Origin: Nakaseomyces glabratus
Taxonomy: Eukaryota; Ascomycota; Saccharomycetes; Saccharomycetales; Saccharomycetaceae
Direction: 5' to 3'
DNA: 64,000 nucleotides
Assembly: GCF_010111755.1 (NCBI RefSeq)
Contig: NC_088951.1
Location: 186,001-250,000, forward strand
This document shows positions 8,828-35,025 of the stretch, piece after piece. Under the pieces are notes generated by a model. It saw only the letters and a program-made list of their open reading frames with translations. It was not told the DNA's origin and made no database searches. Made by a program: the position numbers and the translations under genes. Every line of letters begins with the position of its first letter. Positions within the stretch are counted from its first letter, which is position 1.

Positions 8828-10519
8828 TTAACCTCTACCAACAACTCTCTTGTACCATGGGGTGTCGTCGTGCATCAAAGCATCGGCATCATAATCAGCA
8901 CCTCTTCTGGAAGCAGGAACCCATTTGGAAGACTTCCAAGGCAAAACACCTTCGGCATACATTTCGTTAACCTCTTCTAGAGTTAAACCCTTTGTCTCTG
9001 AGACAAAGAAGAAAACATAGAAGTATGCAAAAACCATACAGCCCATGAAAACATATCCGTAGTAGAAGTTAATGGCATTGGTGATGAATGGAGTGAAGAA
9101 GGCAATCAAGAAACCCCACATCCAGTTAGCAGCAGTTGCAATGGACATGGCCTTGGCCTTGATTCTCAATGGGAAAGTTTCAGAGATAATAACATAAGCG
9201 ATTGGAGCCCAGGTGGTAGCGAAACAGAAGATGTAGAAACAGGAGAAGACGATCATACAGTTACCGGCACCCTTGGAAGAGCCATTACCTTGACCATGGG
9301 GCCATAATCTTGTGACACCAACAGAAGCATAGACAACGTAACAGCAGACCATACCGATAGCACCATACAGTAAACAGTTACGACGACCGAAACGATCGAC
9401 AGTTAGCAAAGAGCAACAGGTGGAGAAGAAGTTGACAACACCGAAAACAATGGAGGTCTCGAAGGAATCTTCTAAACCAACAGCCTTGAAAACAATAGTA
9501 CCATAGTAGAAGAAGTAGTTGTCACCTGTCAATTGTTGCAAAGATTGAATCATGATACCCATAAGAGTACGTCTGAACATAGCTGGCTTACCGGTAAATA
9601 ATTCGCCCCAAGAAGCAGAACCTGCAGATCTAGCTTCATCAACACTAGCTTGAATTAAGTCTAGTTCTTGTTGGATGTATGGGTGATCTGGGGAACATTT
9701 GTTGATTCTGGCCAAGGATGATCTGGCTTCTTCAATTTGACCAGCTTCAACCAAATAACGTGGGGATTCTGGAACGAAGGTCATACCACCGATCATGAAA
9801 AGAGCCCAGGCGAAACATAGACCCAATGGAACTCTCCATTGGACAGAGTTAGTGTAGTTCTTGGTACCGAAGTTAGTACAGTAACCCAAGAAAATACCCA
9901 ATGTGATCATCAATTGGTAGCAAGAAACTAGAGAACCTCTTAGATCACTTGGAGCGACTTCAGAAATCAACATTGGAGATAGAACAGAGATACCACCAAC
10001 ACCCAAACCAGAGATAATTCTACCGATGAAGTATTGGTACCACTTGTTAATGGAAGCGATTTGGATGATGATACCAACGATGTAAATAACAACGACAACA
10101 ACCAAACCCATCTTACGACCTTTAGTGTCACCAAGCTTAGATAGAATAATACCACCGATGGCACAACCAATATTGAAGATAGAGACAATTAAACCAGTTC
10201 TGACCTTGGATAAGTATTCAGTTCCGTCAGGATGCTTCATACCAAATCTGTGAATGAAATCCTTTTGTGCGACAAAACCAGAAATAGTACCGGTATCCCA
10301 TCCAAAGACAAAACCACCAAAAGCGACCATGAAACAACTGATAATGACACCGACAAAAGCACCTTTACCAGTGTTTGGGTTGGCAATCATTTCGTTCTGA
10401 ACAAATTCGTCAGCCATATCATTCTTGCCGACTTGGTTTAGATATTTGGATTCATGAGAATCCACCTCATTTGAAGAAGAGGATTTTTGTGGACTTATCA
10501 AATCCGGTTGAGAATTCAT
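8828..10519 (-). CDS. HXT1: Hexose transporter, HXT1/HXT3 clade
   Basis: A 563-residue, 12-segment hexose transporter of the plasma membrane. It carries the family motifs [44 protein letters not shown] and [10 protein letters not shown]. The segment [20 protein letters not shown] followed by [20 protein letters not shown] is typical of Hxt1/Hxt3, low-affinity carriers in S. cerevisiae. It is the middle of three tandem HXT genes, as HXT1 is in the MSR1-SFB3 interval of S. cerevisiae. The cytoplasmic N-terminus is divergent and lacks the IPKKPASAY block. Codon use is strongly biased, suggesting high expression. Two stretches are almost identical at DNA level to the HXT4-like gene. Assignment to the clade is good; one-to-one orthology is less certain. 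Confidence 0.9.
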
Positions 10520-12660: not shown

Positions 12661-14427
12661 TCAATTTCTTGAGAATACTCTCTTATACCATGGCTTATCA
12701 TCGTGGGAATAGTCATCCAAATTGTACTCGGCAGTTCTTCTGTCTGGAGGCACCCAACTGGATGACTTCCATGGAAGTACACCCTCTTCATACATTTGAT
12801 TAACTTCTTCTAGAGTTAATCCTTTTGTTTCAGGGACAAAGAAAAAGACGTAGAAGTATGCAAATACCATACAGCCCATGAAGACATATCCGTAATAGAA
12901 ATTAATGGCGGATGTGATGAAAGGAGTGAAAAAAGCAATCAAGAAACCCCAGATCCAGTTAGCAGCAATAGCGATGGACATGGCCTTACCACGAATTCTT
13001 AGTGGGTATGACTCAGAGACAATAACATAGGCAATTGGTGCCCATGTAGTGGCAAAACAGAAAATAAAGAAACATGCAAAAACAATCATACAGTTACCAG
13101 CACCTTTGGAAGAGCCGTTACCCTCACCATTTGGCCATAGTCTCGTTACACCAACAGAGGCATAGACAACGTAACAACATACCATACCAACACAACCCCA
13201 CATTAAACAATTACGGCGACCATAGTGGTCTACAGTATACAAGGCATAGAATGTTGAAACAAAGTTGACAACACCTAAAACAATTGCAGTTTGGAATGAA
13301 TCATCTAATCCAACAGCTCTGAAAATGGTAGTACCATAGTAGAAGAAGTAGTTTGCACCCGTTAATTGTTGTAGCGACTGGATCATCATACCCATGATTG
13401 TACGTCTTAACATTTGTGGTTTACCTGTGACTAATTCTCCCCATGATGCAGAGCCGGCCAGACGTTCAGCTTCAACTGATGCTTGATATTTGTCCAGTTC
13501 CAAAAGGACGATTGGAGAATCTACAGTTGTTTTATTGGCTCTGGCAAGAGAACGCTTGGCTTCTTCTAACTTGCCTACTTCCACAAGATATCTTGGAGAT
13601 TCAGGAACACACATAACACCAAATATCATAAATAATGCCCATGCGAAACATAACCCTAATGGAACTCTCCATTGGACAGAGTTGGAGTAGTTTTTTGTAC
13701 CGTAATTGGTACAGTAGCCCAAAAAGATACCACATGTAATCATTAGTTGGTAGCAAGAAACTAATGTACCTCTTAATTGTTTTGGAGAAACCTCAGAGAT
13801 TAACATTGGTGACAAGACAGCGATACCACCGACACCTAAACCGGAGATAATTCTACCGATGAAGTACTGGTACCATTTATCAATAGAGGCGATTTGGATA
13901 ACAATGCCGATTGTATATACAACCACGACCGTAACCAAGCCCAATCTTCTTCCCCAAATATCACCAAGTTTTGAAAGGGTAATACCACCAATAGCACATC
14001 CGATATTAAAGATAGCGACAATTAAACCTGTTCTAACATTAGACAAGTAATAGGTACCATCACTTCTTTGTTGTCCAAATCTTCTCAGAAAATCTGTTTG
14101 GTTAACAAAACCAGAAATAGTACCTGTATCCCAGCCAAAAACAAAACCACCAAAGGCAACCATAATACAGCATAAGGAGACAAATATTAGGTCACTCTTC
14201 TTTTTGTGGTGCAGTTCTTCTTCAACCTCCTTTTGAAGTTCTTCCTTAGGGCCGCTGATCATACTATCAGTCCTTGTTTGCTTGACGCCGTTGGCATCGT
14301 AAATATAATCTGAACCTGACTTTGAGCCCTCATCGGAAATTGTGGCTTGAGTTGGTGGGATATATCCTGCATTTGTTGTCTGAGTGGGTGGTATATACGC
14401 TGGGTTCGTGGGATCAACGTTGGACAT
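12661..14427 (-). CDS. HXT5: Hexose transporter Hxt5-like
   Basis: A 588-residue, 12-segment hexose transporter with the long N-terminal tail typical of Hxt5 (592 residues in S. cerevisiae), including [20 protein letters not shown] before TM1. Hxt5 is the moderate-affinity carrier made in slow growth and starvation. Position next to SFB3 is as in S. cerevisiae. The tail contains a near-perfect tandem repeat of about 11 residues around YIPPTQ. Two conserved sites are changed: TM7 reads [13 protein letters not shown], with Ala at residue 358 where the other three HXT proteins here have Asp, and the loop reads VDHYGRR, with His at 401 instead of Arg. Codon bias looks weaker than in the other three HXT genes. 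The frame is intact, so it is likely functional but possibly changed in kinetics. Confidence 0.92.
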
Positions 14428-16547: not shown

Positions 16548-19352
16548 TTAAAATTGAACAAATTTTTGGTGGATATCGTCTCCACCACGACTCTTCGTGG
16601 AGATCTTGATGTAATCTTCCTTCTTCAATTTCTCCTGAATTTGCCTATGCAAAGCAACGAAATAATTGTCACCACTCTCGATCATGTTGATACTCTTGTC
16701 CTCACATAATACCTGACTGATAATAGAGCTGTAATATTGATCAATGTTTGGTCTCAATGGAATAATTGGCAGAGATTTCTTATTAACCATTTGGCCCCAA
16801 TATCTAATCAAATTAAATGCCTTGTTGTTAATCTCTGTACCTGTCTCAGGTAGCATACCCCCATAGAGTGTTATTTGATTGATAGGGAAATCTGGGTCAA
16901 TTCCAAGAAGATCTTGCAACAATAATCTATTAGTGTGCACATTGAACCACAAGTACACGGAATCACCATTGAAGATCAAGTAACAACCTCCATCTGTCAA
17001 GTTTGAATGCATATTACGGACAGATACTTCATCAAGAGAATCCTCTTGAATCTGTAATAGTTTATCATTAGCATCGTAAAAAGAGAAATCATTTTCTTCC
17101 AGCAAAACATGCATTGGAATTATTTGTGGGTATAATTTGTATAGTAGCTCCGCTGGGTTTATTGTCTCATATCTGATCAAATCATACACTCTCTCATTAC
17201 CACGAGTGCTTTGTTGGTTAGGTTTCATCAAATCCTGCTTTTGGAAACTCAAAATATAAGATGGTAGAGTCTTTAGTGAGTCAGGTAAAACAAGTTGAGA
17301 AGAGCTGTTGCCGCTAACCAAACCTCTGTATTGGGTCAAAATATCGACCAGTTTGGTATCGAGAGACTTTCTTATAGCTGCGAAATCACAATCGCCTAAC
17401 GTCCTGATAACATCCTTTACAATGATACGCAAAACACTATTTTGATTCACGAACTTAAATACTTCACGAACATTATTTGAAACCGCACCATTAGTATTCA
17501 AGGAACGAACTTTTCTGATACCATGCACATCAGTATACAACAAAGCACATTGGAAATGTATATCGGTACCGGCCTTCAACTTTTCTTGATATTTCAGAAG
17601 CACATCAATGGTCGTATCTTTGGTTAAAACAGGAAGAATCACATCTTTATCAGTGTAGCCAGATGCATCTGTATAGTACATGTCCACACCGACACCAGTG
17701 GAACAACGTAGTTTTAACACAGCTTGGTAACCAACTGTATTAGCAATATTTGATACCATATCTTGGACCAATCTCGCCTCGTCATTCTGTTGTATAAAGT
17801 GTGGATAGTACTTAAGAGAACCGTGAGTAACTAGAGTTGGATGACCGACATTAGTCAAATCAACAAAACCACCACTTGTAACAATTAAATCTATGGAAAC
17901 ATAGCTGGCTAATAGGTCATGTGCAAGCTTTTTGTAAAAGTCGTTATCACATCTCATATGATGAACATGTGCATTGTCCTTTTTTAAATATAAGTTACCA
18001 TTACCGATTGTTGGTAGTGAGTTCAAAGAACACACAACTTTACCACCCTCGTCACCTGTGAAGGTTTTCAATGCTAATTTCGCAGCCTGAATAGCTGACC
18101 CGAAACAGGCCTGTGGAACGTGGTAGTACTTGTCGTTAGTAATAAAAGCAGCCAATCTACTTAGAGTTTGGTCAATGACATGCTTAGATTCAGCAGGGTC
18201 TGCAAATAAGCCATTATAGAAAGGTAGGAATACATCGTCTAATTCTGAAATCACGTACTCTTGGGCTGTCTCTAATTCAGGTTTCAGATTGAAAAACTTC
18301 AATTTGTTGTCATATGCAATGATAGCAAGTTTACAGTTTGGTTGATTTTCGATAATGTAGTCAACAGAGCTTCTGATACCTTCAATGACAGCCAAAGAAC
18401 TACCATTTTCATTTGCTAATGATGTAACATCTATCAAAAAGACATAATGCAATGGTACACTTGGTTTATCTGGGTGTGCATTATAGATAGGTGGAACAAT
18501 GAAATCGACAGCGCCTTTAGATAATTCAGGCCTGATTTCTGCATCAGTTCTTTGCCCATTTGGACCAACAGCACTGGAGTAATCATAAGGTGCTGGCTGC
18601 TTAATTTGACAAATATTACAAATCGCCTTCGAATCATAGTTAAATTGAAACTTGGGATTGATGTAACAACGGCAACGTTTACATCTCATTGGACCTTCTA
18701 AATTCTTCATAGTATCTGCAGCTATCCCATCACCAGAAACTGGAACAGAGCCTGGTGTAATATCAGCAAAAGGCTGAATAGTAACACCCAAAGGCAATTT
18801 AGTTGCTGCTCTCAAATGCTGATCCTCGGGGATGTTATACATGGACAATTGCATCAATCGAGGATCACACGAACCAGAGTCGCTAGAGTAAAACTCAGTG
18901 GTAGACGATGGCGGAACCGAGTCCCTTGTGGTATCAAATGCTTTAGTCAAATAACGAAGTTGCTCTTCCCAACGTTGAGTGGGAACAATATGAGAGAAGA
19001 CATTTTCGTTATTGCCATTGGGGAAAAAATAACCTGGTGAGTGTGCTCTTGGAGAAGCATTACCACCCATTACTGGTGTCCTAGGAGGGTTACCATACTG
19101 CAATACTGGTGAATTAACAGTCTGGCTTTCAACCCTCTTTGGCGTAAAAACTCCATTGTTGTCTGCAACTTTTGGAGTTTGGTAATTTGATTGAAATGCA
19201 TACATGTTCGTAGTTGGAGAAGATTGCACAGGGTTGCCTGAGAAAGTATGAAAAGCCCTTGTTGGTCTCTTGGACTTACCCTTTTTCAATTCATTACTTT
19301 GGGATTGCTCTAAGGAAAGATCCGACATGGACCCAGCTAGCTCAAAAGACAT
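16548..19352 (-). CDS. SFB3: Sfb3/Lst1 COPII cargo adaptor (Sec24 paralogue)
   Basis: A 934-residue Sec24-family protein (929 in S. cerevisiae). Lst1/Sfb3 pairs with Sec23 in COPII coats on the endoplasmic reticulum and loads cargo such as the proton pump Pma1. The N-terminal 200 or so residues are polar and proline-rich. A zinc finger with CKRC and CNIC follows near residues 221-245, then the trunk (VFLIDVT), beta-sandwich, helical and gelsolin-like domains (YLIFNGDSVYLWFN). The C-terminus reads STKSRGGDDIHQKFVQF. It lies between HXT5 and TRA1 as in S. cerevisiae, except that a sortilin-like gene and a longer gap have intervened. The first ATG is used; a second ATG eight codons downstream is an alternative. 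Confidence 0.95.
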   Translation of the reverse strand: MSFELAGSMSDLSLEQSQSNELKKGKSKRPTRAFHTFSGNPVQSSPTTNMYAFQSNYQTPKVADNNGVFTPKRVESQTVNSPVLQYGNPPRTPVMGGNASPRAHSPGYFFPNGNNENVFSHIVPTQRWEEQLRYLTKAFDTTRDSVPPSSTTEFYSSDSGSCDPRLMQLSMYNIPEDQHLRAATKLPLGVTIQPFADITPGSVPVSGDGIAADTMKNLEGPMRCKRCRCYINPKFQFNYDSKAICNICQIKQPAPYDYSSAVGPNGQRTDAEIRPELSKGAVDFIVPPIYNAHPDKPSVPLHYVFLIDVTSLANENGSSLAVIEGIRSSVDYIIENQPNCKLAIIAYDNKLKFFNLKPELETAQEYVISELDDVFLPFYNGLFADPAESKHVIDQTLSRLAAFITNDKYYHVPQACFGSAIQAAKLALKTFTGDEGGKVVCSLNSLPTIGNGNLYLKKDNAHVHHMRCDNDFYKKLAHDLLASYVSIDLIVTSGGFVDLTNVGHPTLVTHGSLKYYPHFIQQNDEARLVQDMVSNIANTVGYQAVLKLRCSTGVGVDMYYTDASGYTDKDVILPVLTKDTTIDVLLKYQEKLKAGTDIHFQCALLYTDVHGIRKVRSLNTNGAVSNNVREVFKFVNQNSVLRIIVKDVIRTLGDCDFAAIRKSLDTKLVDILTQYRGLVSGNSSSQLVLPDSLKTLPSYILSFQKQDLMKPNQQSTRGNERVYDLIRYETINPAELLYKLYPQIIPMHVLLEENDFSFYDANDKLLQIQEDSLDEVSVRNMHSNLTDGGCYLIFNGDSVYLWFNVHTNRLLLQDLLGIDPDFPINQITLYGGMLPETGTEINNKAFNLIRYWGQMVNKKSLPIIPLRPNIDQYYSSIISQVLCEDKSINMIESGDNYFVALHRQIQEKLKKEDYIKISTKSRGGDDIHQKFVQF

Positions 19353-19982: not shown

Positions 19983-22367
19983 TCAGCATGAAGAAATATC
20001 CCACCTAGTGTTATTAATATTCAGTAGACACTGAGCTGATGGAGCCCTTCTGTTAATTTCGTAACGAGAACCGTTCAGGCAAGTACCGTTATTCAGCTTA
20101 AACTGTTCCAAGTCGCTTGAAGAGCTACAAAGCTTCCCGTTAAACAAGGAAGAGAAGTCTACAACTTCAGCAACATTTCGGAATCCTCTTCTGCTCTCAC
20201 CGGTTAGGATGAATTGCAACCCGGAGCTATCAGGTGTGGTACTAATAACATCATTGGAGAACAAAGGCACTGATGTAGGTAATCTATCCCAGGTAGCACC
20301 CATATTCAAAGAGTACACAAAACCAGTGGTATTTCTCAAGCCATTGTCTTCCGCAACAATGATGTTACCAAAGTTACCAAGGGCAACTGCCTTTGAGTAA
20401 TCTAATATTTGTTCCCACGTCATACCACCATCCTTTGACAGGAATGTCGTGGTCAAAAGGTAGAAATTATCGAAGTAATCATCACTATCAGTTTCTATAT
20501 CCGTTAGATTGTAATCGTCATACAAGTCATCAAGATTAGTTATATTGAAGGTCCTGTTGAAGTCTTGTGGAGTTAAATTAATATTTCCTTGCGCGACCAT
20601 GATACCGGTCTTTGAATATCCTAGAATGGCGGACAACTGTAAGGTACAGTTGTTGTGTGCAATACAAGAGTAATTTCCCTTTACACTAGAACTGTTGACT
20701 TTCAAATCATTCCATGTTGCACCATTATCAGTTGATATCTTTGATGTCGAGTTCCATATACCAAGAGGAGCCATGATTATAGTACCATTTAAATCCCCGA
20801 AAGTGTAGAGTTGGCTGAACAATGAGTCACTGTAGCTGATATTAGCACTAGTGAAATTCAACCCTGTAGAATCAGAAATAAATACAGAAGAAACATTAGT
20901 AGAACTATTAGAAGCCGTACTATTCGTTACCTCCGTAAATCCCAATGTGAATGGTGAGAAGCCATTACTAAATATTAACTTACCTCCCATTATTTCACTC
21001 ACTGAGAAGACATTGTAAGTAATGGCTGGAATGTTAGCCCTATTGAAATCCTTACCATCTTTGGATACGTAAAGATCAACTGTTCTGAACAATTCAGATA
21101 TTTGACTAAACAGATCCCCTATTGCACCATCAATACCATCGATTCCAGAAATACCGTCAATGCCAGGAATACCATCAACACCAGGAATACCATCTACACC
21201 ATCTACACCCGGAACACCATCAACACCATCTACACCCGGAACGCCACTAGCACCTGGAATTCCACTTGTACCTGGGATGCCACTTGCGCCAGGAATACCA
21301 GGCATACCTGGAATACCTGGAATACCACTAATACCAGGAATGCCGCTGAGGTGTGGTATATCGCTAATGCCTGGAATACCACTAATGCTAGGGAATCCAC
21401 TAATACCAGGTATACCAGGGAAATTTGAAATTCCTGGGAAGTCACTAACAGTTGGCGTAGGAGGTAAGTCATCACTATCATCAGAATCATCGTCGCTGTT
21501 TCCGTTATCATCTCCAAGATTGAATAACCAATTAGCAGCTGTAGTATTAGCGGTCTGCATGATCACATATGAGTCTGTTATCTGAACATCCAAAGGATAA
21601 ATTCCAGACGATAAATTAACGGCTTGCAAAGTTACACCAAAATCTCCTGAGAAAAATACAGTATTATTGAAGCCCCTGTTAGTAGATGTGAAGAAACATA
21701 CTAAATCACTACTGTTTTTGAATTTAGTGGTTGGAGTAGATGCCAGGAAGTGACATAAGAATTTGTCAACTACACTGTCATTCAAGTTAGGAATAGATGG
21801 CTTTATTTCTCTAAAAGATGTACCGTTATTGACCGATATGAATGATCTACCACGGTAGTGTTTTGTATCTAACACCTCGATGAAATTAGATATAATCAAA
21901 CTCTTATTGTGTACGTTTGTAGACACATCAAAGAGCATAGAAGAGTTAGTTAAGTTTGAAATAGGTCCAGATGTTTCATTTCTGCCCTGGGCGTCAAAAA
22001 CGTAGAACACATTCTTAAAACCATAAAATGCTCTTGATTCACTATACAAAGGATCAATAATTACTTCAGGTTCATAGTAAGATTCCATATCATCAAAGTA
22101 TTCACTATTTAGGAAATCGAAGTAGTTGAATGTCCTATTGCTACCATTATGTCTCTGAGGTGTCGCAGTATTGTTAAGCAAAACAGTCCAGTTTTTACCG
22201 TAGTTATTACTAAACAACACAGAAGAGCTATTGTATCTCAGCAAACTGCTTGAGTTACTGAAGACAGCAACACTCTCAGACTCAGTAGCATTGAAAGAGG
22301 TAGCATTTGGTGTAAATGCACATGAAAGCGATGCCAATGCGCACAAAAATATCAACGAATATATCAT
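19983..22367 (-). CDS. Secreted Vps10/sortilin-like propeller with collagen-like insert
   Basis: A 794-residue protein with a signal peptide (residues 1-17, hydrophobic, ending CAF). It is related to one lumenal domain of Vps10, the vacuolar sorting receptor. Asp-box repeats are visible: LYVSKDGKDF, ISTDNGATW, FLSKDGGMTW and YSLNMGATW. The end (LFNGKLCSSSSDLEQF, GTCLNGSRYEINRRAPSAQC) matches the close of the first Vps10 propeller. The protein stops there: no ten-cysteine domain, second propeller, membrane segment or cytosolic tail. Residues 286-300 are Asp/Ser-rich. Residues 312-417 are Gly-X-Y triplets, uninterrupted from 342, inserted in a propeller loop. I count roughly 35 N-glycosylation sequons. 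S. cerevisiae has shorter sortilin relatives (VTH1/2, YNR065C, YNR066C). Likely secreted or periplasmic; ligand unknown. Family assignment is firm; the function is not. Confidence 0.85.
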   Translation of the reverse strand: MIYSLIFLCALASLSCAFTPNATSFNATESESVAVFSNSSSLLRYNSSSVLFSNNYGKNWTVLLNNTATPQRHNGSNRTFNYFDFLNSEYFDDMESYYEPEVIIDPLYSESRAFYGFKNVFYVFDAQGRNETSGPISNLTNSSMLFDVSTNVHNKSLIISNFIEVLDTKHYRGRSFISVNNGTSFREIKPSIPNLNDSVVDKFLCHFLASTPTTKFKNSSDLVCFFTSTNRGFNNTVFFSGDFGVTLQAVNLSSGIYPLDVQITDSYVIMQTANTTAANWLFNLGDDNGNSDDDSDDSDDLPPTPTVSDFPGISNFPGIPGISGFPSISGIPGISDIPHLSGIPGISGIPGIPGMPGIPGASGIPGTSGIPGASGVPGVDGVDGVPGVDGVDGIPGVDGIPGIDGISGIDGIDGAIGDLFSQISELFRTVDLYVSKDGKDFNRANIPAITYNVFSVSEIMGGKLIFSNGFSPFTLGFTEVTNSTASNSSTNVSSVFISDSTGLNFTSANISYSDSLFSQLYTFGDLNGTIIMAPLGIWNSTSKISTDNGATWNDLKVNSSSVKGNYSCIAHNNCTLQLSAILGYSKTGIMVAQGNINLTPQDFNRTFNITNLDDLYDDYNLTDIETDSDDYFDNFYLLTTTFLSKDGGMTWEQILDYSKAVALGNFGNIIVAEDNGLRNTTGFVYSLNMGATWDRLPTSVPLFSNDVISTTPDSSGLQFILTGESRRGFRNVAEVVDFSSLFNGKLCSSSSDLEQFKLNNGTCLNGSRYEINRRAPSAQCLLNINNTRWDISSC
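21117..21434 (-). repeat. Collagen-like Gly-X-Y coding repeat
   Basis: A 9-base periodic tract with a glycine codon at every third position, covering residues 312-417 of the sortilin-like protein. Glycine is unbroken from residue 342 to 417 (26 glycines). From 312 to 341 the register holds with Asn, Ser, Asp and His replacing some glycines. Position X is mostly Ile or Val, position Y mostly Pro, Ser or Asp. An exact 18-base copy at 21198-21215 and 21225-21242 gives a 27-base period, suggesting replication slippage. Confidence 0.9.
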
Positions 22368-23793: not shown

Positions 23794-26700
23794 ATGGCGT
23801 CCGCTGATCAGATTAGTGAGTATGCCGAGAAATTGAAGGACGACCAGCAGAGTCTGGCGTCGCGGTACTCGACGGTGTCTGAGCTGTACGATTTGATGCA
23901 GTTACTGAACACGCCTGAAGAATTTCAAATGTTTCTCACCTCTATGGTGCCTATCATCCTGGAGCAATTGGAAAAGATTGACATAAGCTTCGAGTCCAAC
24001 TCCTACGAGCAGAAACTAAGGTTTTCCTTGCTGGAAATTTTGAACAAGTGTATGGTGAACCAAAGCTTTGAGCCATACGCGGTCAGAGTAGCAGATGCAC
24101 TACTAGATATTCTTCCTAAGGAAAACGAAAAGAACGGTGTTATAATAACCAAGATTCTGACTATACTCTTCAAGTCATTCAAGAATATTTTGGGTGAAAA
24201 GGTGAACTCCTTCATCGATATCATTATCCAATTCTATAAGAACAGGCCCGAGCTTGTGGAGAAGACTTTTTACTCCGATGAAAATGGTGGGTTGGAGAAC
24301 TCCAGTAGTAATGATGATGACGATACAAATAACAATTCCAATGATGAATCTACTATGGAGTCTAATAACGATAGTACCAACATCCTGGACGTCAAGAGCT
24401 CAAGGGGCTCTGTGGATGATGATGTTCACGAGAACTCAACCAAAGGTCAGAAGCTCAGACCATCTTTACACTCCTTTAAAATCTTATCGGAATGCCCAAT
24501 TACAATGGTCACCTTATATTCTTCCTACAAACAGTTAACCACGACTTCATTGCCCGAGTTTGCTCCATATATTATGACTTTATTGAGTATTGAAGTCAAA
24601 CAACAGAAACAAGCAAGAGAGGAAGCTGAGAAGAGAGGCGAACGCTTTGTCTCTGTATCACCACTAATTAATGATAAAGCAGCATACAACGACTTCATCT
24701 TGGCTCAAATTAAAGCTACATCATTTTTGGCATATGTTTTCATTAGAGGATACGCTGCGAACTCACTACAAAATTATATTCCAATTGTGCCTGATTTGAT
24801 TATACGCTTGTTGCAAGATTGCCCTCCTGAATTGCCATCAGCCAGGAAAGAGCTGTTACATGCAACTCGCCATATCCTTTCCACGAACTATAAGAAATTA
24901 TTTCTTCCAAAACTAGACTATCTGTTTGATAAAAGTGTCCTTATAGGCAATGGCTTCACAATGTATGAAACTCTTCGGCCTCTCGCTTACAGCACAGTTG
25001 CTGATTTTATCCATAACATAAGATCCGAGCTAAAACTTAATGAGATTGAAAAGACAATAAAGATGTATACCGAATATCTCATGGACGAGTCCCTTGCGCT
25101 CACAGTGCAAATTATGAGTGCCAAATTACTGCTGAATTTGGTGGAAAGGATCCTGAAACTAGGTAAGGAAAATCCACAGGAAGCACCTAGAGCTAAAAAA
25201 CTCCTAATGATTATCGTTCACGCCTATGTTACTAGGTTCAAAAAATTAAATAGACAATACAATACCATTATGAAACAGCATAAGAAAATTGAAAAGGAGA
25301 AAAATATAAAACAGCATTCAAAAAAGAACCCTCTACCAGAAGTTGCTGATGATACCGACAATTTCATTAAGTCAGTATTGAAGGAGAATTACCTGGAAGA
25401 CACTACCGCCAAAAATAAGGAAGACAAATCAGAGGGTAAGGTAGAAGAGATTGAAGTGGATGAGCCTGTAAATATAGAACTCTTTGAATTGCACGATCTT
25501 CTTCCAATTCAGCTATCCCCAAAGAGTCATAATGACCCTGTTAAGGATGCATTTTACCTTTACAGGACTCTGATGTCCTTCCTGAAAACTGTGGTTTACG
25601 ATCTGAAAATATTTAATCCATCAGCCAATGAGTACACCCTAGCTCATCCAAAACTTTGGGCTTCTGTATCAAGAGTTTTTTCATATGAAGAAGTTTTAGT
25701 ATTAAGAGATTTATTCCATGAGTGCATTATTGGGCTAAGGTTCTTCTCTAGTGAAAATCCTGTTAATAAAGACCTCCTCTCGAAGAAGCATTTTGATATT
25801 ACAATGCCAAGCCTCCCTGTATCAGCTACTAAAGATGGTAGGGAGTTGATGGATTACTTAGCATTCACTTTTATGCAGGTAGATAGTGCAACATTTAATG
25901 AAGTTGTGAACGCCGAAATGGACTTTTTATATGATAGAATGCTAGAAGATTCAGCGCTATTACATGTAGCACAATCTTTTCTAACAAGCGAATTAACATC
26001 TCCGAACTTTGCTGGCATACTGCTCAGATTTCTGAAAAGAAAACTGAAAACATTGGGCAACACTGATTTTAACACATCCAATATTCTCATCAGATTATTT
26101 AAACTTTCATTTATGTCTGTGAACTTGTTTCCTAATATTAATGAAATTGTTCTATTACCACATCTCAACGGACTAATATTAGATTCTCTGGAATACTCCA
26201 AAACTGCTGAAGAACCGCTAGTTTACTTCTACTTGATCAGAACGCTATTCAGAAGTATTGGAGGCGGAAGGTTTGAAAACTTGTACAGATCAATTAAACC
26301 AATTCTTCAAGTTTTATTACAATCCCTTAACGAGAAGATCGTTTCTGCTAGATTACCTCACGAACGCGAACTATATGTGGAGTTGTGCATTACGGTACCA
26401 GTAAGACTGAGTGTTTTGGCACCCTATTTACCATATCTGATGGAGCCTTTAGTATATGCTTTGCAAGAATATCCTGATTTAGTATCACAGGGCTTAAGAA
26501 CTCTTGAACTATGCATTGATAATCTGACTGCCGAGTATTTTGATCCAATCTTAGAGCCAGTAGTTGATCAAGTCTCTAAAGCTCTTTTCAAACTGCTGCA
26601 GCCACAGCCCTTTAACCACACAATCAGCCATAATGTTGTTAGAATACTGGGTAAGCTAGGAGGAAGAAATAGACAATTTTTAAAGACACCTACCGATCTA

Positions 26701-29700
26701 AAAACAGTTGAATCATTAAATGTCGATCTTGTTACAGAAGCAATGGCTAATGGTAAAAATGGCTCAATGTCACTTTCTGTTACTCCTGGTGTTGAGGCTG
26801 CGGTATCAATTATTGAAAATCATGCATCAGATTTGGAGGCCAAATTAAGTGCTTATAAGTATTTGAAATCGGTTTTCTTGCTGTTTATCAAATCTTCGAC
26901 TAAGTTTCCAGATGATTATCACAATATAATCAAAAAAGCAATTGACTTGTTACAGCAAGACAAATTAGAATTGAAGGAGGATTATTCTTTAGAGTGTTAC
27001 GTTCATAGGAAGGAATTTTATGATCAAGAGGCGCTTCTGATAAAGATATTTGAATCTATATTTCTGGCAACCTCTACACCTGAATTAAAAGAGGATGCAA
27101 TGAAATTACTAAATAAACTTGCTGACCATTTCTCCTTGCTACAGGTCAATAAAGCTCTGCAACAAAAACGGTTCCAGTCAGACACATTTAACATAGATAT
27201 CAAATACTCTGATCCGATGTTTTCGACCAATATTCTCACAAAAGCTCTCATGTCGGCACTATCCAGTTATAAGGAAGATGTAAGAGAGTCCAGTATATTG
27301 ACGATAAAGAGAATTTGCGAAAGAAGTTTACTTATCTTTGGTTCTAAATTAGTCTTTAAATACTCATTAGTCCCAGACCTGATGAAAGATGCAATTCATC
27401 TGTGTTTTGACGAGGCATTTTACAATAAAAGAGCTGGTGTACTAGGTATTGGTGCAATAATAGATAATATAGAAGCATCAGAGGAGTACTTAAAGTCTTT
27501 GAGATTTGAGCTAATTGATGGTCTGCTTTTTGTTCTCAAGGATACTCCCGAAGAAGCTCCCGTTCTTATTACAAATGAGGCTGAAAACTTATTCAACAAA
27601 ATCTTAGAGAGAACCTGTTCGGAAATCTCGGAAGATGATCTCTCATCAAAGGGATTACAAAACACCTTAACTGATATTGTTTGTGAACTAAGTAATGCCA
27701 ATCCCGTAGTTCGTAAAGCATGTAAGAATGCTTTAGAACTAATTTCAAAAAATTCTAATATGCCTATCGTCAAATTAATGGATCATTCGAAGCACTTTTT
27801 GCTCTCTCCAATCTTTGCAAAGCCTTTGAGGGCTCTACCTTTTACTATGCAAATAGGTAACCTAGATGCGGTTACCTTCTGTTTAAGCTTACCAGGAACT
27901 TTTTTGCAGTTTAATGAGGAGCTATTTAGACTGCTACAGGAAGCAATTGTTCTTGCTGATGCCGAAGATGAATCACTATCAACAGCTCAGAGAGCTGCAG
28001 AATATAAGACTTCCCAACAACTGACGCAATTGAGAGTATCCTGTATAAAACTTCTTGCACTTGCTTTAAAAAACGAAGACTTCGCCAATGCACAGCAGGG
28101 TAATATCAGAATTAGAATACTGGCCGTTTTCTTCAAAACAATGCTTAAAACATCACCAGTCATTATAGAAACTACATATGAGGCACTAAAAGATGCACTC
28201 TCTGAAAATTCCAGGCTTCCAAAAGAACTTCTCCAAAATGGTCTGAAACCACTTTTGATGAATTTATCTGACCATCAAAAACTTACTGTTCCAGGCCTTG
28301 ACGCTCTTTCGAAGCTATTAGAGCTTCTAATTGCCTACTTTAAAGTTGAAATAGGTAAAAAACTACTAGATCATCTTAATGCTTGGTGTAGAGTGGAAGT
28401 ACTTGATACTTTATTTGGTCAAGACATACACGAACAGACACCTACAAAAATTATTGTTAGTATCATTAATATCTTCCACCTTCTCCCCCCACAAGCTGAT
28501 ATGTTTCTAAATGATTTACTACTGAAAGTTATGTTATTGGAAAGGAAGCTGAGATTGCAAATCGATTCACCTTTTAGAGTTCCTTTAGCGAAATATATGA
28601 ATCGTTTTAGTTCATCAGTGATAGAATACTTTAAGAAGAATATGGCTTTAAGACAGTTGGTTGTATTTATGTGTAGCATCATACAAAAAGAGGAAGCGAA
28701 AGATCTAGCAACCCGCTTTGAAAATGAACTATCAAACTTTTATGAATTTTATATGACATCGATCCCTTCAAACCAAGTCCGTGTGGTGAGCTTTTTAACT
28801 AACATGCTCGATATATTTACAACTGTTTGGAAGATCAGAGGTAATGAATGGCTGAAAGATCAAAAGGATTTTGTAATGAAACTAAAAGATATGGTTGCAT
28901 TGACTATTGACACAATAAAGGAGAACAAATTTTATATAGACCATCTGCAACTGTCACAATCCATTGAGAAATTCCAATTCATATATGTCAACTTGCTAAC
29001 ACATTACCCTAATGAACAATCATTATTTTTTGAATTTATCGAGTTTTTAAATGCCAAGGATATCTGTATGACTGACTGCTTCGATGACTTCATCTTCAAA
29101 AATATTGTGTCCTTGTCTGATAAAGACAAACAAAATAGCTTACTTGAGGAGTCAATAGAATACTCTCTAAAAACTAAATCATTAAATGTGAGTGTATTCA
29201 TCTACAAAAAAATAGTCAACCCATCACTAATATTTGAAGTTGCTCAAAACCAAGATCTTAAATGCTATGGTGAAGCAAAATTGCCAGCCTGGCTCGAACT
29301 TATCGACTCTAAAATTTGGAAGACTAAGAACAGCTTATTATTAGGTACCACCGCAAATTGCCACGACAAGTTTAGGTTTGAGTTGTTACAACTGACTGCC
29401 ATATTGATAAAGTATGCACCAAAGATTCTAACTGATGTCAAAAGAGATATAATTAAGTTCACATGGCATTTTATTAAACTAGATGATATCATACTGAAGC
29501 AATCCGCATATTTGACAACAGCGCTTTACATCAAAGAATTCGACTTTCCTATTAAAGTAGCCACTCAAGTTTTCGTTTCATTACTGAGATCAAGTCCATC
29601 AGAGGGGAAATTTTTAGTGAAGCAGTCATTAGACGTCCTTGCACCTGTGATAGATGAAAGACTCAAGACGACAGAAGATCCAGATATTTGGATAAATTGG

Positions 29701-32700
29701 GTAAAGAGAGTAATGTTTGAGAACACTTCGAGTCAGAACATTATTCTATACCAGTTTATTATAGACCACCCAGACTTGTTTTTCAAATCTAGGAACCTAT
29801 TTGTTTCAAATATAATTCATCAAATGAATAAGATGTCTTTTATGTTGAACTCAAATCCAGAGAATCATATACTTGCGATCGACTTAGCTTCTCTTATTTT
29901 GAGATGGGAAAACAGATCTGCAGGTCAAGCGAACCAGCAATTATTGGATAAAGATGGTGATATCTCTATGTCAGATGCTAATGACACCAATGAGATTAAA
30001 ACTGAACATGGTGAGGGCGAAGTCGTAATAAGTACTATCCCAATGAATTTAAGAGAAACTTGTATTGCTTTCTTGATAAGATATATCTGTGCCAGCAACA
30101 ACCGTGCTTCTGATTCGGAACTGGGATCTCGTACATTGCAAATACTATCAGAATTCTTATCTGAGCAAAGCTGGGAGAATGTTAACGTCAAATTAGAATA
30201 CTTTGAGAAATTTCTCCTTTCACAAGATATGGAAACGGAAAACCTATTATATTATTGCATCAACGCTTTGGATGTCTTATATATATTCTTCCAAAATAAG
30301 ACCGACAAGTGGATTTATGAAAATCTTGCTAACATCGAACATTTGTTGTCGAAATGTATTAGAGCGCATCATCATGATCTCCAAGAAGCTTTACAAAAAG
30401 TTCTCGGCCTGGTTTTGAGAGCTATACGCTTACAAGAGAGCCAGGACAGTAGTGAAGAAGAACAACCTGGTAAGGGATTTATCAGCTCACTAATCAATGT
30501 CATCGAAAAAAATCTTCAGGAGACAGCATCTGTTGCAGCTGGTGTTACTTTGTCGTGGACATTATTTAAGACATTCCCTGACAGTATAGAATCTTTACTT
30601 TTACCCTTAATGAAAACCTTTAGCAAACTTTGTAAGGATCAGCTAAGCATGACTCAACCTAAAGATGCTGTCGCAATGGAAGAAGCACAACTAACTACCA
30701 AATTGCTAGAAAAAGTCTTATTTATTCTTTCAATCAGAATCGGCTCACTTGGTGATTCAAGAAGACCGTTCTTGTCGACGATGGCATTGTTGATAGACCA
30801 TTCAATGGATCAAAATTTCTTGCGTAAAATTGTTAGTATTACTCGTTATTGGATATTTAACAATGTCAGCTTCCCAACAGTGAAAGAAAAAGCTGCTATT
30901 TTAACAAAAATGCTTGCCTTCGAAGTTAGAGGAGAACCAACGTTATCGGAACTATTTTACAATACCGTCTTAAAACTATTTGACGATGGACAATCCACCA
31001 ATCCAGAGATTACTTCGCGAATGGAACAACCCTTCCTTGTTGGAACATGCACCAGCAATAAAGACATAAGAAAGAAATTTATGTCCATATTAAATTCCAG
31101 CATAAAGGATGATATAAAAGAGAGAATCTACTACATTATATGTGATCTTAACTGGGAGTTTATCGCTGACTATCCATGGTTGAATCAAGCGTTGCAGCTT
31201 TTGTACGGTTGTTTAGACTCTACTCAATCATATGAAATCATTAATAGCTATGAATTATCAACTCCATTAACTTTGAAGAGTCTTTTAGAGGAAACGAACT
31301 CTGAAAGTTCTGCTGACGAAACTACTGAAGAACTAACAGCCTTTATTACCACTCATAAGAATGATATTGAACAAATATGTGAAATCAAGAAGGCTGATAT
31401 TTTTGATCCATTGGTAGAAATATTTTATAAAGACCATAAATCAATTCAGAGGGCTTGGGTTAATTTTTTCCCTGAAGCCTATAAGTGCATTCCAAAAGAT
31501 GAAAAGTATGGCTTCATCCGATCTTTGATAGTTTTATTATCAAAACCGAACCCCACCAGACAAAATTCAAACAGGTTGAATGTAATTAACATGTGGTTAG
31601 AATCCTTTGGGAAGATAGAGTCATTCGAGGTTCCACCACATCTTGTAAAATATCTGGCCATTTCATGCAACTCATGGTATCAATCGATAAATATTTTGGA
31701 GTCAATGCAGAATAACTCACAAATTGAAAATGGAAAAATAATAGAGGCCGTTGAAGATTCCTTACTTGAATTGTACATCAACCTTCAAGAGGAGGACATG
31801 TTTTATGGACTTTGGAGAAGAAAAGCCAAATATACTGAGACCAATATTGCTTTATCATATGAACAAGTTGGTCTTTGGGAAAAGGCACAACAATTGTATG
31901 AGGTTGCCCAAGTTAAAGCCAGGAGTGGTGCTTTGCCTTACTCTGAACCAGAATATGCGCTATGGGAGGATAATTGGATTATATGTGCAGAAAAATTACA
32001 ACATTGGGACGTTTTGACTGAATTAGCCAAACATGAAGGTTTCACTGATCTTCTACTTGAATGTGGTTGGCGTGTGGCTGACTGGAATACAGATCGGGAA
32101 GCACTAGAACAATCAGTAAAAAGTGTAATGGATGTACCAACTCCTAGAAGACAAATGTTCAAAACGTTTTTGGCACTACAAAACTTTGCAGATACACGTA
32201 AAGGTGACCAAGATGTACGCAAATTATGTGGTGAAGGTATACAACTAAGTTTACACAAATGGGTCTCTCTTCCAGAGAGATACACTCCCGCACATAAGTG
32301 GCTACTTCACGGTTTTCAACAATATATTGAGTTTATGGAGGCAACCCAAATTTATGGTAACCTGCATACTACGACTGTACAGAACTTAGACGCCAAAGCA
32401 CAAGAAATTAAGAGGGTACTACAAGCTTGGAGAGATCGACTTCCAAATATCTGGGATGATGTAAATATGTGGAATGATCTGGTTACTTGGAGACAACATG
32501 CATTCCAAGTCATAAATAATTCTTACTTGCCATTGATCCCTGCTTTGCAACAAGCTAATAATAATGGCAATATTAACACACACGCTTATAGAGGTTATCA
32601 CGAAATTGCTTGGGTAATTAACAGATTTGCTCATGTGGCTAGGAAACACAACATGCCTGATGTATGTATTAATCAACTTGCAAGGATCTACACCTTACCT

Positions 32701-35025
32701 AACATCGAAATCCAGGAGGCTTTCTTAAAACTGAGAGAACAAGCTAAATGCCACTATCAAAATACCAACGAATTAACTACTGGTCTTGATGTTATCAGCA
32801 ACACTAACTTGGTATATTTCGGAACTGTTCAGAAGGCTGAATTTTTTACCTTAAAGGGTATGTTCTTATCCAAACTAAGGGCTTATGATGAAGCAAATCA
32901 GGCGTTCGCCACTGCTGTTCAAATCGATCTAAATCTCGCAAAGGCGTGGGCTCAATGGGGTTTTTTCAATGATAGAAGATTAACGGAAGAACCAAACAAT
33001 ATTAGTTTTGCAAGTAATGCCATCAGCTGCTATCTACAAGCTGCTGGCCTATACAAAAATTCTAAAATCCACGAACTACTTTGCCGTATTCTATGGCTGA
33101 TCAGTATGGATGACTCTTCAGGATCCATAGCAAACGCATTTGAATCTTTTAGAGGTGAGGTACCTGTATGGTATTGGATAACTTTTATTCCACAATTATT
33201 GACTTCGCTGTCTCACAAAGAGGCCAATATGGTGCGCCAAATATTAATTAGAATAGCTAAGAGTTATCCACAAGCTCTACACTTTCAATTAAGGACTACG
33301 AAGGAAGATTTCGCTGTAATTCAGAGACAAACTATGAATTCATCAGCCGAGAAAAAGGATAAAAATGAACAAATAGTCAGCAACGGAGATCATCGTCAAC
33401 CATGGGAATATTTGCAAGAACTAAATAATATTCTAAAGACCGCATATCCCTTGCTAGCTTTGTCTCTAGAATCCTTGGTTGCTCAAATCAATGAGCGGTT
33501 CAAAACAAGTACCGATGAAGATTTGTTTAGATTAATTAACGTTTTATTAATCGATGGCACATTCAATTATAACAGACTACCCTTCCCCAGGAAAAATCCA
33601 AAACTACCAACAACAACAGAAAACAATTTGATGAAATTTGCTAACACCTTGTTAGCACCTTATATTAGACCTAAGTTCAACGCTGACTTTATTGAAAGTA
33701 AACCAGACTTTGAGACATACATTAAAAGACTTCGCTATTGGAGAAAACGTCTGGAATCAAAATTGGACCGTGCTCCTGCTGTGGAAAACCTCGAACGAAT
33801 TTGCCCCCATTTGAGTAATTTTCACCACCAGAAATTCGAAGATATTGAGATTCCTGGGCAATATCTCCTGAATAAAGATAATAACCTGCACTTTGTTAAA
33901 ATTGCGAGATTCCTTTCTCGCGTTGATTTTGTTTATGGAACTCACTTTTCTTACAGAAGGATCACCATTAGAGGACACGATGGTAGCTTGCATTCTTTTG
34001 CAGTACAATACCCAGCCGTACGTCACTCCAGAAGAGAAGAGCGGATGTTCCAACTCTACAGATTGTTTAACAAGACATTATCGAAAAATGTTGAAACCAG
34101 ACGTAGAAACATTGAATTCCATCTTCCAATTGCTGTACCATTGTCTCCTCAGGTACGTATTATGAACGATAGTTCATCATTTGTGACAATGCAACAGATT
34201 TATGATCAATATTGCGAAAAGAATAAAATTGACCCTTACATGATTCAGGATTTTATTTCCGAAAAGTTGAATTCCGCATATGATAAGGCACTTCCTCCAC
34301 CTGATAGCACTGTCCTGAAGGTAGAAATTTTCAGTTCTATCCAATCATTATATGTTCCAACGACAGTTATGAAGGATTATTTCTTGAATTTGTTCACTTC
34401 TTTTGAAGAATTTTGGCTTTTCAGGAAACAGTTTGCCTCTCAGTATAGTGCATTTGTATTCATGTCTTTCATGATGATGATCAACAGTAGATCACCACAT
34501 AAAATCCATGTCGACAAGAATTCTGGTAATGTTTTCACCCTTGAGATGCTTCCTTCTAGATATCCGTACGAAAGAGTGAAACCATTACTCAAGAACCAAG
34601 AATTGAACCTACCATCTGATGCTCCGATTTTCCATAATAACGAGCCAGTTCCTTTCCGTATGACCTCTAACATCCAAACTTTGATTGGAGAAACAGCACT
34701 TGAAGGTGTGTTTGCTGTGGACCTGTTTACTATAGCAAAAGCATTGATTGAACCAGAAAACGAACTAAACACGTTACTGACCCTATTTATTAGAGATGAA
34801 ATTATTTCATGGTACAGTAATCTACACAGGCCAATAATTGAAAATCCACAATTGAGAGATATGGTACAAACCAATGTTGATTTGATAATAAGAAGAGTTG
34901 CGCAAATGGGACATGTTAGTTCCACTCCTACTGTCATTACGCAATTCATTCTTGACTGTATCAGTGCATCAGTAAACCCTAGGAACCTAGCCAAGACTGA
35001 CATCAGTTTCATGCCATGGTTTTAG
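23794..35025 (+). CDS. TRA1: Tra1, SAGA/NuA4 activator-binding scaffold
   Basis: A 3743-residue protein, one residue shorter than S. cerevisiae Tra1 (3744). Tra1 is the shared subunit of the SAGA and NuA4 histone acetyltransferases and contacts transcription activators. Most of the length is HEAT-type helical repeats, followed by a FAT domain and a pseudo-kinase (PIKK-like) domain from about residue 3350. A FATC tail ends the protein (NPRNLAKTDISFMPWF). As in the family, catalytic motifs are absent: the region near residue 3569 reads KIHVDKNSGNVFTLEML where a kinase would have its catalytic and DFG loops. An Asp/Asn/Ser-rich loop occupies residues 167-209. The frame is intact and the start is the first ATG. 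The upstream neighbour SFB3 is conserved; the downstream neighbour is not. Confidence 0.98.
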   Translation: MASADQISEYAEKLKDDQQSLASRYSTVSELYDLMQLLNTPEEFQMFLTSMVPIILEQLEKIDISFESNSYEQKLRFSLLEILNKCMVNQSFEPYAVRVADALLDILPKENEKNGVIITKILTILFKSFKNILGEKVNSFIDIIIQFYKNRPELVEKTFYSDENGGLENSSSNDDDDTNNNSNDESTMESNNDSTNILDVKSSRGSVDDDVHENSTKGQKLRPSLHSFKILSECPITMVTLYSSYKQLTTTSLPEFAPYIMTLLSIEVKQQKQAREEAEKRGERFVSVSPLINDKAAYNDFILAQIKATSFLAYVFIRGYAANSLQNYIPIVPDLIIRLLQDCPPELPSARKELLHATRHILSTNYKKLFLPKLDYLFDKSVLIGNGFTMYETLRPLAYSTVADFIHNIRSELKLNEIEKTIKMYTEYLMDESLALTVQIMSAKLLLNLVERILKLGKENPQEAPRAKKLLMIIVHAYVTRFKKLNRQYNTIMKQHKKIEKEKNIKQHSKKNPLPEVADDTDNFIKSVLKENYLEDTTAKNKEDKSEGKVEEIEVDEPVNIELFELHDLLPIQLSPKSHNDPVKDAFYLYRTLMSFLKTVVYDLKIFNPSANEYTLAHPKLWASVSRVFSYEEVLVLRDLFHECIIGLRFFSSENPVNKDLLSKKHFDITMPSLPVSATKDGRELMDYLAFTFMQVDSATFNEVVNAEMDFLYDRMLEDSALLHVAQSFLTSELTSPNFAGILLRFLKRKLKTLGNTDFNTSNILIRLFKLSFMSVNLFPNINEIVLLPHLNGLILDSLEYSKTAEEPLVYFYLIRTLFRSIGGGRFENLYRSIKPILQVLLQSLNEKIVSARLPHERELYVELCITVPVRLSVLAPYLPYLMEPLVYALQEYPDLVSQGLRTLELCIDNLTAEYFDPILEPVVDQVSKALFKLLQPQPFNHTISHNVVRILGKLGGRNRQFLKTPTDLKTVESLNVDLVTEAMANGKNGSMSLSVTPGVEAAVSIIENHASDLEAKLSAYKYLKSVFLLFIKSSTKFPDDYHNIIKKAIDLLQQDKLELKEDYSLECYVHRKEFYDQEALLIKIFESIFLATSTPELKEDAMKLLNKLADHFSLLQVNKALQQKRFQSDTFNIDIKYSDPMFSTNILTKALMSALSSYKEDVRESSILTIKRICERSLLIFGSKLVFKYSLVPDLMKDAIHLCFDEAFYNKRAGVLGIGAIIDNIEASEEYLKSLRFELIDGLLFVLKDTPEEAPVLITNEAENLFNKILERTCSEISEDDLSSKGLQNTLTDIVCELSNANPVVRKACKNALELISKNSNMPIVKLMDHSKHFLLSPIFAKPLRALPFTMQIGNLDAVTFCLSLPGTFLQFNEELFRLLQEAIVLADAEDESLSTAQRAAEYKTSQQLTQLRVSCIKLLALALKNEDFANAQQGNIRIRILAVFFKTMLKTSPVIIETTYEALKDALSENSRLPKELLQNGLKPLLMNLSDHQKLTVPGLDALSKLLELLIAYFKVEIGKKLLDHLNAWCRVEVLDTLFGQDIHEQTPTKIIVSIINIFHLLPPQADMFLNDLLLKVMLLERKLRLQIDSPFRVPLAKYMNRFSSSVIEYFKKNMALRQLVVFMCSIIQKEEAKDLATRFENELSNFYEFYMTSIPSNQVRVVSFLTNMLDIFTTVWKIRGNEWLKDQKDFVMKLKDMVALTIDTIKENKFYIDHLQLSQSIEKFQFIYVNLLTHYPNEQSLFFEFIEFLNAKDICMTDCFDDFIFKNIVSLSDKDKQNSLLEESIEYSLKTKSLNVSVFIYKKIVNPSLIFEVAQNQDLKCYGEAKLPAWLELIDSKIWKTKNSLLLGTTANCHDKFRFELLQLTAILIKYAPKILTDVKRDIIKFTWHFIKLDDIILKQSAYLTTALYIKEFDFPIKVATQVFVSLLRSSPSEGKFLVKQSLDVLAPVIDERLKTTEDPDIWINWVKRVMFENTSSQNIILYQFIIDHPDLFFKSRNLFVSNIIHQMNKMSFMLNSNPENHILAIDLASLILRWENRSAGQANQQLLDKDGDISMSDANDTNEIKTEHGEGEVVISTIPMNLRETCIAFLIRYICASNNRASDSELGSRTLQILSEFLSEQSWENVNVKLEYFEKFLLSQDMETENLLYYCINALDVLYIFFQNKTDKWIYENLANIEHLLSKCIRAHHHDLQEALQKVLGLVLRAIRLQESQDSSEEEQPGKGFISSLINVIEKNLQETASVAAGVTLSWTLFKTFPDSIESLLLPLMKTFSKLCKDQLSMTQPKDAVAMEEAQLTTKLLEKVLFILSIRIGSLGDSRRPFLSTMALLIDHSMDQNFLRKIVSITRYWIFNNVSFPTVKEKAAILTKMLAFEVRGEPTLSELFYNTVLKLFDDGQSTNPEITSRMEQPFLVGTCTSNKDIRKKFMSILNSSIKDDIKERIYYIICDLNWEFIADYPWLNQALQLLYGCLDSTQSYEIINSYELSTPLTLKSLLEETNSESSADETTEELTAFITTHKNDIEQICEIKKADIFDPLVEIFYKDHKSIQRAWVNFFPEAYKCIPKDEKYGFIRSLIVLLSKPNPTRQNSNRLNVINMWLESFGKIESFEVPPHLVKYLAISCNSWYQSINILESMQNNSQIENGKIIEAVEDSLLELYINLQEEDMFYGLWRRKAKYTETNIALSYEQVGLWEKAQQLYEVAQVKARSGALPYSEPEYALWEDNWIICAEKLQHWDVLTELAKHEGFTDLLLECGWRVADWNTDREALEQSVKSVMDVPTPRRQMFKTFLALQNFADTRKGDQDVRKLCGEGIQLSLHKWVSLPERYTPAHKWLLHGFQQYIEFMEATQIYGNLHTTTVQNLDAKAQEIKRVLQAWRDRLPNIWDDVNMWNDLVTWRQHAFQVINNSYLPLIPALQQANNNGNINTHAYRGYHEIAWVINRFAHVARKHNMPDVCINQLARIYTLPNIEIQEAFLKLREQAKCHYQNTNELTTGLDVISNTNLVYFGTVQKAEFFTLKGMFLSKLRAYDEANQAFATAVQIDLNLAKAWAQWGFFNDRRLTEEPNNISFASNAISCYLQAAGLYKNSKIHELLCRILWLISMDDSSGSIANAFESFRGEVPVWYWITFIPQLLTSLSHKEANMVRQILIRIAKSYPQALHFQLRTTKEDFAVIQRQTMNSSAEKKDKNEQIVSNGDHRQPWEYLQELNNILKTAYPLLALSLESLVAQINERFKTSTDEDLFRLINVLLIDGTFNYNRLPFPRKNPKLPTTTENNLMKFANTLLAPYIRPKFNADFIESKPDFETYIKRLRYWRKRLESKLDRAPAVENLERICPHLSNFHHQKFEDIEIPGQYLLNKDNNLHFVKIARFLSRVDFVYGTHFSYRRITIRGHDGSLHSFAVQYPAVRHSRREERMFQLYRLFNKTLSKNVETRRRNIEFHLPIAVPLSPQVRIMNDSSSFVTMQQIYDQYCEKNKIDPYMIQDFISEKLNSAYDKALPPPDSTVLKVEIFSSIQSLYVPTTVMKDYFLNLFTSFEEFWLFRKQFASQYSAFVFMSFMMMINSRSPHKIHVDKNSGNVFTLEMLPSRYPYERVKPLLKNQELNLPSDAPIFHNNEPVPFRMTSNIQTLIGETALEGVFAVDLFTIAKALIEPENELNTLLTLFIRDEIISWYSNLHRPIIENPQLRDMVQTNVDLIIRRVAQMGHVSSTPTVITQFILDCISASVNPRNLAKTDISFMPWF

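Follow-up and report, generated by a model that had tools for sequence, protein, structure and literature searches.

A divergent, probably secreted Vps10-domain paralogue of a budding yeast with a Gly-X-Y array in a propeller loop

Judged by its sequence, the gene at positions 19983–22367 (minus strand) of the window, the 64,000-nucleotide stretch of DNA analysed here, is a divergent paralogue of PEP1/VPS10 that is cut short inside the 10CC module. Our preferred reading, to which we give slightly better than even chances, is that this paralogue has become a soluble, secreted, N-glycosylated binding protein in which a Gly-X-Y loop forms an extended arm, and not a classical collagen rod. As the initial annotation had stated, the open reading frame is single and uninterrupted (794 residues). 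The Pfam families Sortilin-Vps10, Sortilin_C and Collagen all match its translation above cut-off. Its parts and neighbours are as follows.

19983..22367, minus: whole open reading frame (794 amino acids plus stop, intact frame), predicted secreted Vps10-domain protein with Gly-X-Y loop
22317..22367, minus: predicted signal peptide, residues ~1–17 (hydrophobic N-terminus; cleavage site judged by eye)
21543..22316, minus: N-terminal part of the Vps10 propeller, residues 18–275, divergent (PEP1 alignment and Asp-box-like motifs at 53, 178 and 240)
21084..21542, minus: loop insert, residues ~276–428 (alignments to the first PEP1 propeller, P0117 and sortilin; model pLDDT)
21468..21512, minus: Asp/Ser-rich stretch near the insert start, residues 286–300 (sequence composition)
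21111..21434, minus: Gly-X-Y array, residues 312–419 (Gly starts 32 of 36 triplets)
21111..21344, minus: uninterrupted core of 26 Gly-X-Y triplets, residues 342–419 (triplet count)
21087..21140, minus: possible short amphipathic helix at the array end, residues 410–427 (both AlphaFold2 models, pLDDT ~25–40; a lead only)
20130..21083, minus: C-terminal part of the Vps10 propeller, residues 429–746 (Pfam PF15902; 32% identity to the first PEP1 propeller)
19986..20129, minus: shortened 10CC region, residues 747–794, ending at the stop codon (PF15901 positions 1–80 of 167; Cys 747, 763, 780 and 794)
16548..19352, minus: neighbouring Sec23/Sec24-family protein, SFB3-like (family match)
23794..35025, plus: neighbouring 3743-residue open reading frame, TRA1-like (length, sequence, gene order)

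Relationship to PEP1/VPS10 and signs of secretion

The proposed kinship with sortilin and Vps10 is borne out by Pfam (Sortilin-Vps10, PF15902, 88.2 bits against a cut-off of 33, E = 6.7e-25; Sortilin_C, PF15901, 39.2 bits against a cut-off of 27, E = 1.2e-9), by profile matches to sortilins and by alignment to PEP1. In two-sequence BLAST, run with composition correction and masking off, residues 415–781 align with PEP1 residues 240–573 at 32% identity (E = 1.5e-45) and residues 5–272 with PEP1 residues 8–240 at 20% identity (E = 2.6e-11), the best match to the second PEP1 propeller being weaker (E = 1.5e-11). Of the single propeller originally described, the N-terminal half is only weakly recognizable, at ~20% identity to PEP1. 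The 10CC module is incomplete, with four cysteines and then the stop codon.

A database search with residues 424–794 listed two matches, a sortilin-like protein of Zophobas morio and P0117, a 579-residue Vps10 protein that has no insert and no signal peptide evident by eye; P0117 is the closest relative among the matches listed (27% identity over 85% of the query). A further search with a three-row alignment of our protein, the first PEP1 propeller and P0117, minus the insert, added two more Vps10 proteins. Four propeller cysteines (205, 224, 568 and 574) are invariant in this alignment, and a pattern search finds seven Asp-box-like motifs in the protein. At E up to 0.001, a sequence profile made from the protein minus most of the insert, together with the first PEP1 propeller and P0117, matched 14 distinct PDB sequences, of which 10 are sortilin, 3 SorLA and 1 SorCS2, sortilins being the best solved relatives (E = 2.4e-24). 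The 27 best Foldseek matches of an AlphaFold2 model are sortilin, SorLA and SorCS2 chains as well, at query TM-scores of just 0.31–0.37. Confidence is low in both AlphaFold2 models (mean pLDDT 43 for the first and 36 for the second), neither resolves the number of blades, and the second draws the strand after the insert differently from the first; the insert-flanking strands and the Foldseek ranking were taken from the first model, and the low-confidence helix at residues 410–427 from both.

Two genes with Vps10 matches were found in this genome of 13 contigs and 12.7 Mb, the gene studied here and a 1514-residue PEP1-like receptor on contig C10. Gene content and gene order suggest that the genome is that of a budding yeast. 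The 633 bases downstream of the shortened frame yielded nothing of the lost PEP1 sequence (best tblastn E 3.4). The Vps10-type gene lies between an SFB3-like gene (which we take to be SFB3 from the S. cerevisiae gene order) and a TRA1-like gene (presumably TRA1, to judge by its length, its sequence and its place in that order). As SFB3 and TRA1 are adjacent in S. cerevisiae, the Vps10-type gene may have been added there. It stands alone between the two, so that the earlier suggestion of an undescribed system finds no backing here. Elsewhere in the window, three tandem sugar transporter genes (3666–5372, 8828–10519 and 12661–14427, minus strand) lie beside an arginyl-tRNA synthetase gene.

The sequence features expected of a soluble secreted glycoprotein, as listed in the initial annotation, are in place. 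Hydropathy is highest in the whole protein at residues 1–19, consistent with a signal peptide; no 19-residue window starting after residue 25 exceeds a Kyte-Doolittle mean of 1.08, the C-terminus is polar, and neither a transmembrane span nor a GPI-type tail is evident from the hydropathy scan and the C-terminal composition. We counted 36 N-glycosylation sequons, close to the ~35 given before, all of them outside the insert; none of 10,000 shuffles of the non-insert residues reached this number (mean 15.0), and the first 680 residues of PEP1 contain four.

According to PMC6646403, yeast Vps10, whose S. cerevisiae homologues are Vth1 and Vth2, sorts CPY as a type I membrane receptor and also helps to target Pep4. 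As the frame of the paralogue ends inside the 10CC module, the second propeller, the membrane span and the cytoplasmic tail are missing from it. A cytoplasmic sorting tail is absent, both at the end of the open reading frame and from the 633 downstream bases; because such a tail is needed for receptor cycling, the protein would be unable to cycle as a sorting receptor and would leave the cell via the secretory pathway.

The loop insert and its glycines

The insert, of ~150 residues (about 276–428), stands where PEP1, P0117 and sortilin have a short turn in the alignments; in sortilin, the stretches flanking this turn read RFLFASVMA and RRIHVSTDQG. From the fold and from the low-confidence first model, in which residues 275–428 have pLDDT below 50 and lie between strands 268–274 and 430–435, we infer that the insert sits between neighbouring strands of one blade. 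The Gly-X-Y array, originally put at about 105 residues, is confirmed at residues 312–419 and matches Pfam Collagen (PF01391) with 53.1 bits against a cut-off of 27.2 (E = 2.7e-14). Gly occupies 31 of the 34 triplet positions of residues 318–419 (binomial p ~2e-29 at the protein's own Gly frequency) and 26 of 26 in residues 342–419. In the 32 Gly triplets of the array, position X is taken by Ile in 18, Val in 7, Ala in 3 and by Phe, Met, Thr and Asp in one each; position Y holds Pro in 14, Ser in 8, Asp in 8 and Ile and Leu in one each. TRF reports periods of 9, 18 and 27 bases. No copy of the array was found elsewhere in the genome, by a search that skips simple repeats and is correspondingly weak.

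It is very improbable that a misassembly fused a repeat to a PEP1 pseudogene, or that the gene is otherwise decaying. The shortened 10CC region would fit such a history, as would the lack of a close homologue among the matches listed for residues 424–794; against it stand the intact 794-residue frame, the gain of sequons and the lack of PEP1 remnants in the 633 downstream bases, and the insert itself keeps the frame on both flanks, is placed at the turn of its relatives and consists of DNA that matches nothing but itself in the assembly. An intron covering the insert was also considered and rejected. The consensus splice pair GTATGT (21701) and TACTAAC (21684) is just 17 bases apart, and the sole pair that brackets the insert, GTATGT at 21701 with a weak branch-like TACTAAT at 20901, would also excise conserved propeller sequence on both sides. 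On the opposite strand, an antisense open reading frame of 141 codons (21160–21585, plus) has a collagen-like reading as well (GIPSTPG...), seemingly because GGT/ACC repeats read alike on both strands.

Gly-X-Y sequence is not singular to the Vps10-type gene: three more genes of the same genome, all on contig C10, exceed the Collagen cut-off.

L009 5876-8488, minus, contig C10: adhesin-like gene with Gly-X-Y repeats
L010 295-2661, minus, contig C10: adhesin-like gene with Gly-X-Y repeats
L010 4528-7215, minus, contig C10: adhesin-like gene with Gly-X-Y repeats

These genes adjoin one another at ~266–277 kb. Their products are, like the sortilin-like protein, predicted to be secreted and to carry Gly-X-Y repeats. 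They differ from it in that the repeats, set beside SSSVEP stalks, are near-pure minisatellites (GQPGAA, GQAGQA), in their hydrophobic C-termini and in the absence of a Vps10 match; Hyphal_reg_CWP is above cut-off in two of the three, and the third has no Pfam match.

The codons of the array bear on whether its glycines matter. In the core, departures of Gly codons from the consensus number 8 of 26 at position 3 and 0 of 52 at the first two positions (Fisher p = 7e-5); when all 36 triplets are counted, position 3 departs in 13 of 36 and the first two positions in 6 of 72. Tandem units are not independent, and such p-values are therefore too small. The array does not look recent, since most of its repeat units are distinct (20 of 26 nine-base core units and 13 of 13 eighteen-base units); the adhesin-like arrays come closer to pure minisatellites, their distinct nine-base units numbering 9 of 26, 7 of 21 and 9 of 24. 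However, Gly codons of these recent-looking arrays also vary at position 3 alone (5 of 26, 10 of 21 and 6 of 24; positions 1 and 2 never), which weakens the codon argument: either all four arrays would be constrained, or the codon pattern weighs less than it seems. Among the matches listed there is no orthologue with a comparable loop, so that the evidence for constraint comes from codons within the array. With this proviso, selection seems to have maintained the array glycines, and this speaks against expansion by neutral processes alone.

We consider it unlikely that the loop is such an expansion, that is, a functionless coding minisatellite that slippage has lengthened where a surface loop tolerates it, in an otherwise ordinary secreted Vps10 paralogue. 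The 9-, 18- and 27-base periods, the Asp/Ser-rich low-complexity sequence that adjoins the array and the behaviour of the adhesin-like genes, whose Gly-X-Y minisatellites show the same pattern of codon change, are all consistent with slippage; yet the array has diverged, and throughout this divergence its core has never lost a Gly.

Composition, geometry and the prospect of a triple helix

The core contains no Pro at X and no Lys or Arg, and its X residues are hydrophobic in 81% of triplets, compared with a maximum of 71% among 108 collagen-like matches. These are the 108 of the 115 proteins matched by the whole sequence that have at least 20 scored triplets (seven were dropped), and were thus picked by similarity to the array itself. 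Eleven of them also lack Pro at X and 15 lack Lys and Arg, so that it is the hydrophobic X alone that falls outside their range; Pro at Y is at 42% in the core, the median of the matches being 32%. The composition is not of the kind that favours a triple helix (Pro at X, Hyp at Y or charge pairs). The sole match to PF13640 (2OG-Fe(II) oxygenase) in the genome is a TPA1-like open reading frame of 648 residues with no signal peptide evident by eye, and a secretory prolyl 4-hydroxylase was not found in this genome search, which covered the PF13640 family. In the review PMC7824840, the stability of Hyp-free Scl2 is put down to Pro at X and to charge interactions. As far as its sequence tells, the Gly-X-Y stretch does not look well adapted to forming a stable collagen helix of the classical type.

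Geometry sets a second limit. Taking 0.286 and 0.36 nm as the rise per residue, 34 triplets make a rod of 29 nm. As the loop begins and ends at the same turn, a closed propeller leaves no room for a parallel triple helix of full length, and the full 34-triplet rod is excluded for this reason. A closed loop is estimated to hold at most ~28 triplets with the rest fully stretched. The 26-triplet core fits if the 66-residue N-flank is stretched to 94% of its contour, and 15–20 triplets fit easily.

Within these limits, trimerization is possible as far as the sequence goes. A collectin-like trimer, in which the 26-triplet core would form a partial or complete triple helix nucleated by the amphipathic helix that follows, with three propellers per stalk and multivalent binding, is in our estimate rather unlikely. 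It would account for the strict Gly of the core with its synonymous drift, and for the heptad spacing, judged by eye, of I416, L419, I423 and L426 at the array end, where both AlphaFold2 models draw a helix (pLDDT ~25–40); a partial helix of up to ~20 triplets would be easily accommodated. By contrast, of what PMC7824840 names for Scl2 (Pro at X and charge interactions), Pro at X is absent here, as are basic residues, the hydrophobic X content exceeds that of every match compared, the hydroxylase search was negative, and the full rod cannot close the loop. Thus, of the collagen-type multimer first envisaged, the strict Gly-X-Y repeat stands, and the position of the array in a propeller loop, its composition and the solitary TPA1-like PF13640 match tell against the rest. 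The boldest version, three secreted propellers joined by a Hyp-free hydrophobic Gly-X-Y triple helix from a propeller loop into a soluble, multivalent, collectin-like Vps10 binding or decoy protein, which would have arisen independently in budding yeast and be the first sortilin-collagen fusion as far as searched, we regard as quite unlikely.

Strict Gly over 26 triplets nevertheless exceeds the need of a flexible arm and favours some triple-helical or polyproline-II packing. In our preferred reading of a secreted paralogue with an extended arm, the Gly-hydrophobic-Pro/Ser/Asp loop would project as a polyproline-II-prone arm free of N-glycans. The protein would act in the wall space or the medium, its propeller binding peptides or proteins, and the arm would contact the wall or sister molecules, perhaps with some self-association.

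Comparison with known proteins and implications

With Pep1/Vps10 the protein shares the signal peptide, a Vps10 propeller with Asp boxes and the start of Sortilin_C. Pep1/Vps10 has two propellers, a membrane span and a tail, whereas the paralogue has one propeller, a shortened 10CC and neither span nor tail, and adds its 36 sequons and the ~150-residue loop with Gly-X-Y. Ectodomains of animal sortilin, SorLA and SorCS are the best solved relatives, both by profile and by fold of the weak model; these proteins have a complete 10CC and a membrane anchor, and sortilin has no Gly-X-Y insert at the matching place in the alignment. Collectins and C1q likewise combine a collagen-like part with a binding domain, and a short helix that follows the array may be a further parallel. 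Their collagen part is N-terminal to the head, whereas here Gly-X-Y sits in a loop of the head, its composition is poor and a trimer would be hypothetical. The bacterial adhesins Scl1/Scl2 and Lcl likewise have hydroxyproline-free Gly-X-Y sequence, and their NCBIfam models match weakly, well short of the thresholds (35.5 of 325 bits for SclB, 34.6 of 500 for Lcl); Scl2, as described in PMC7824840, relies on Pro at X and charge, and the yeast array has neither Pro at X nor Lys or Arg.

The sortilin-collagen combination is unusual, and limited searches returned no second fusion. Nearly all of the 115 matches listed for the whole protein have a Collagen domain, P0068 being an exception, and by precomputed domain assignments none of the 119 proteins among the matches listed has both PF15902 and PF01391, in keeping with the earlier remark that no other sortilin-family protein is known to contain collagen-like sequence; the protein search needs shared five-residue words and lengths of 0.55–1.75 times the query and scores a limited number of candidates, and diverged orthologues can escape it. 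In the open-access literature, no title among the matches listed named a sortilin-collagen or a budding-yeast collagen-like protein, and no paper was found that joins Vps10 with a collagen-like domain or Kazachstania with collagen-like sequence. One paper on entomophthoralean fungi reportedly contains the words collagen triple helix repeat.

The best-known role of Vps10-domain proteins is that of membrane sorting receptors. If our reading is true, a soluble, hyperglycosylated Vps10 protein with a kept Gly-X-Y loop would be an example of a yeast putting this fold to use outside the cell. The array also asks whether a Gly-hydrophobic-Pro/Ser/Asp repeat without Pro at X or basic residues, and probably without Hyp, can pack triple-helically, which is not expected from current stability rules.
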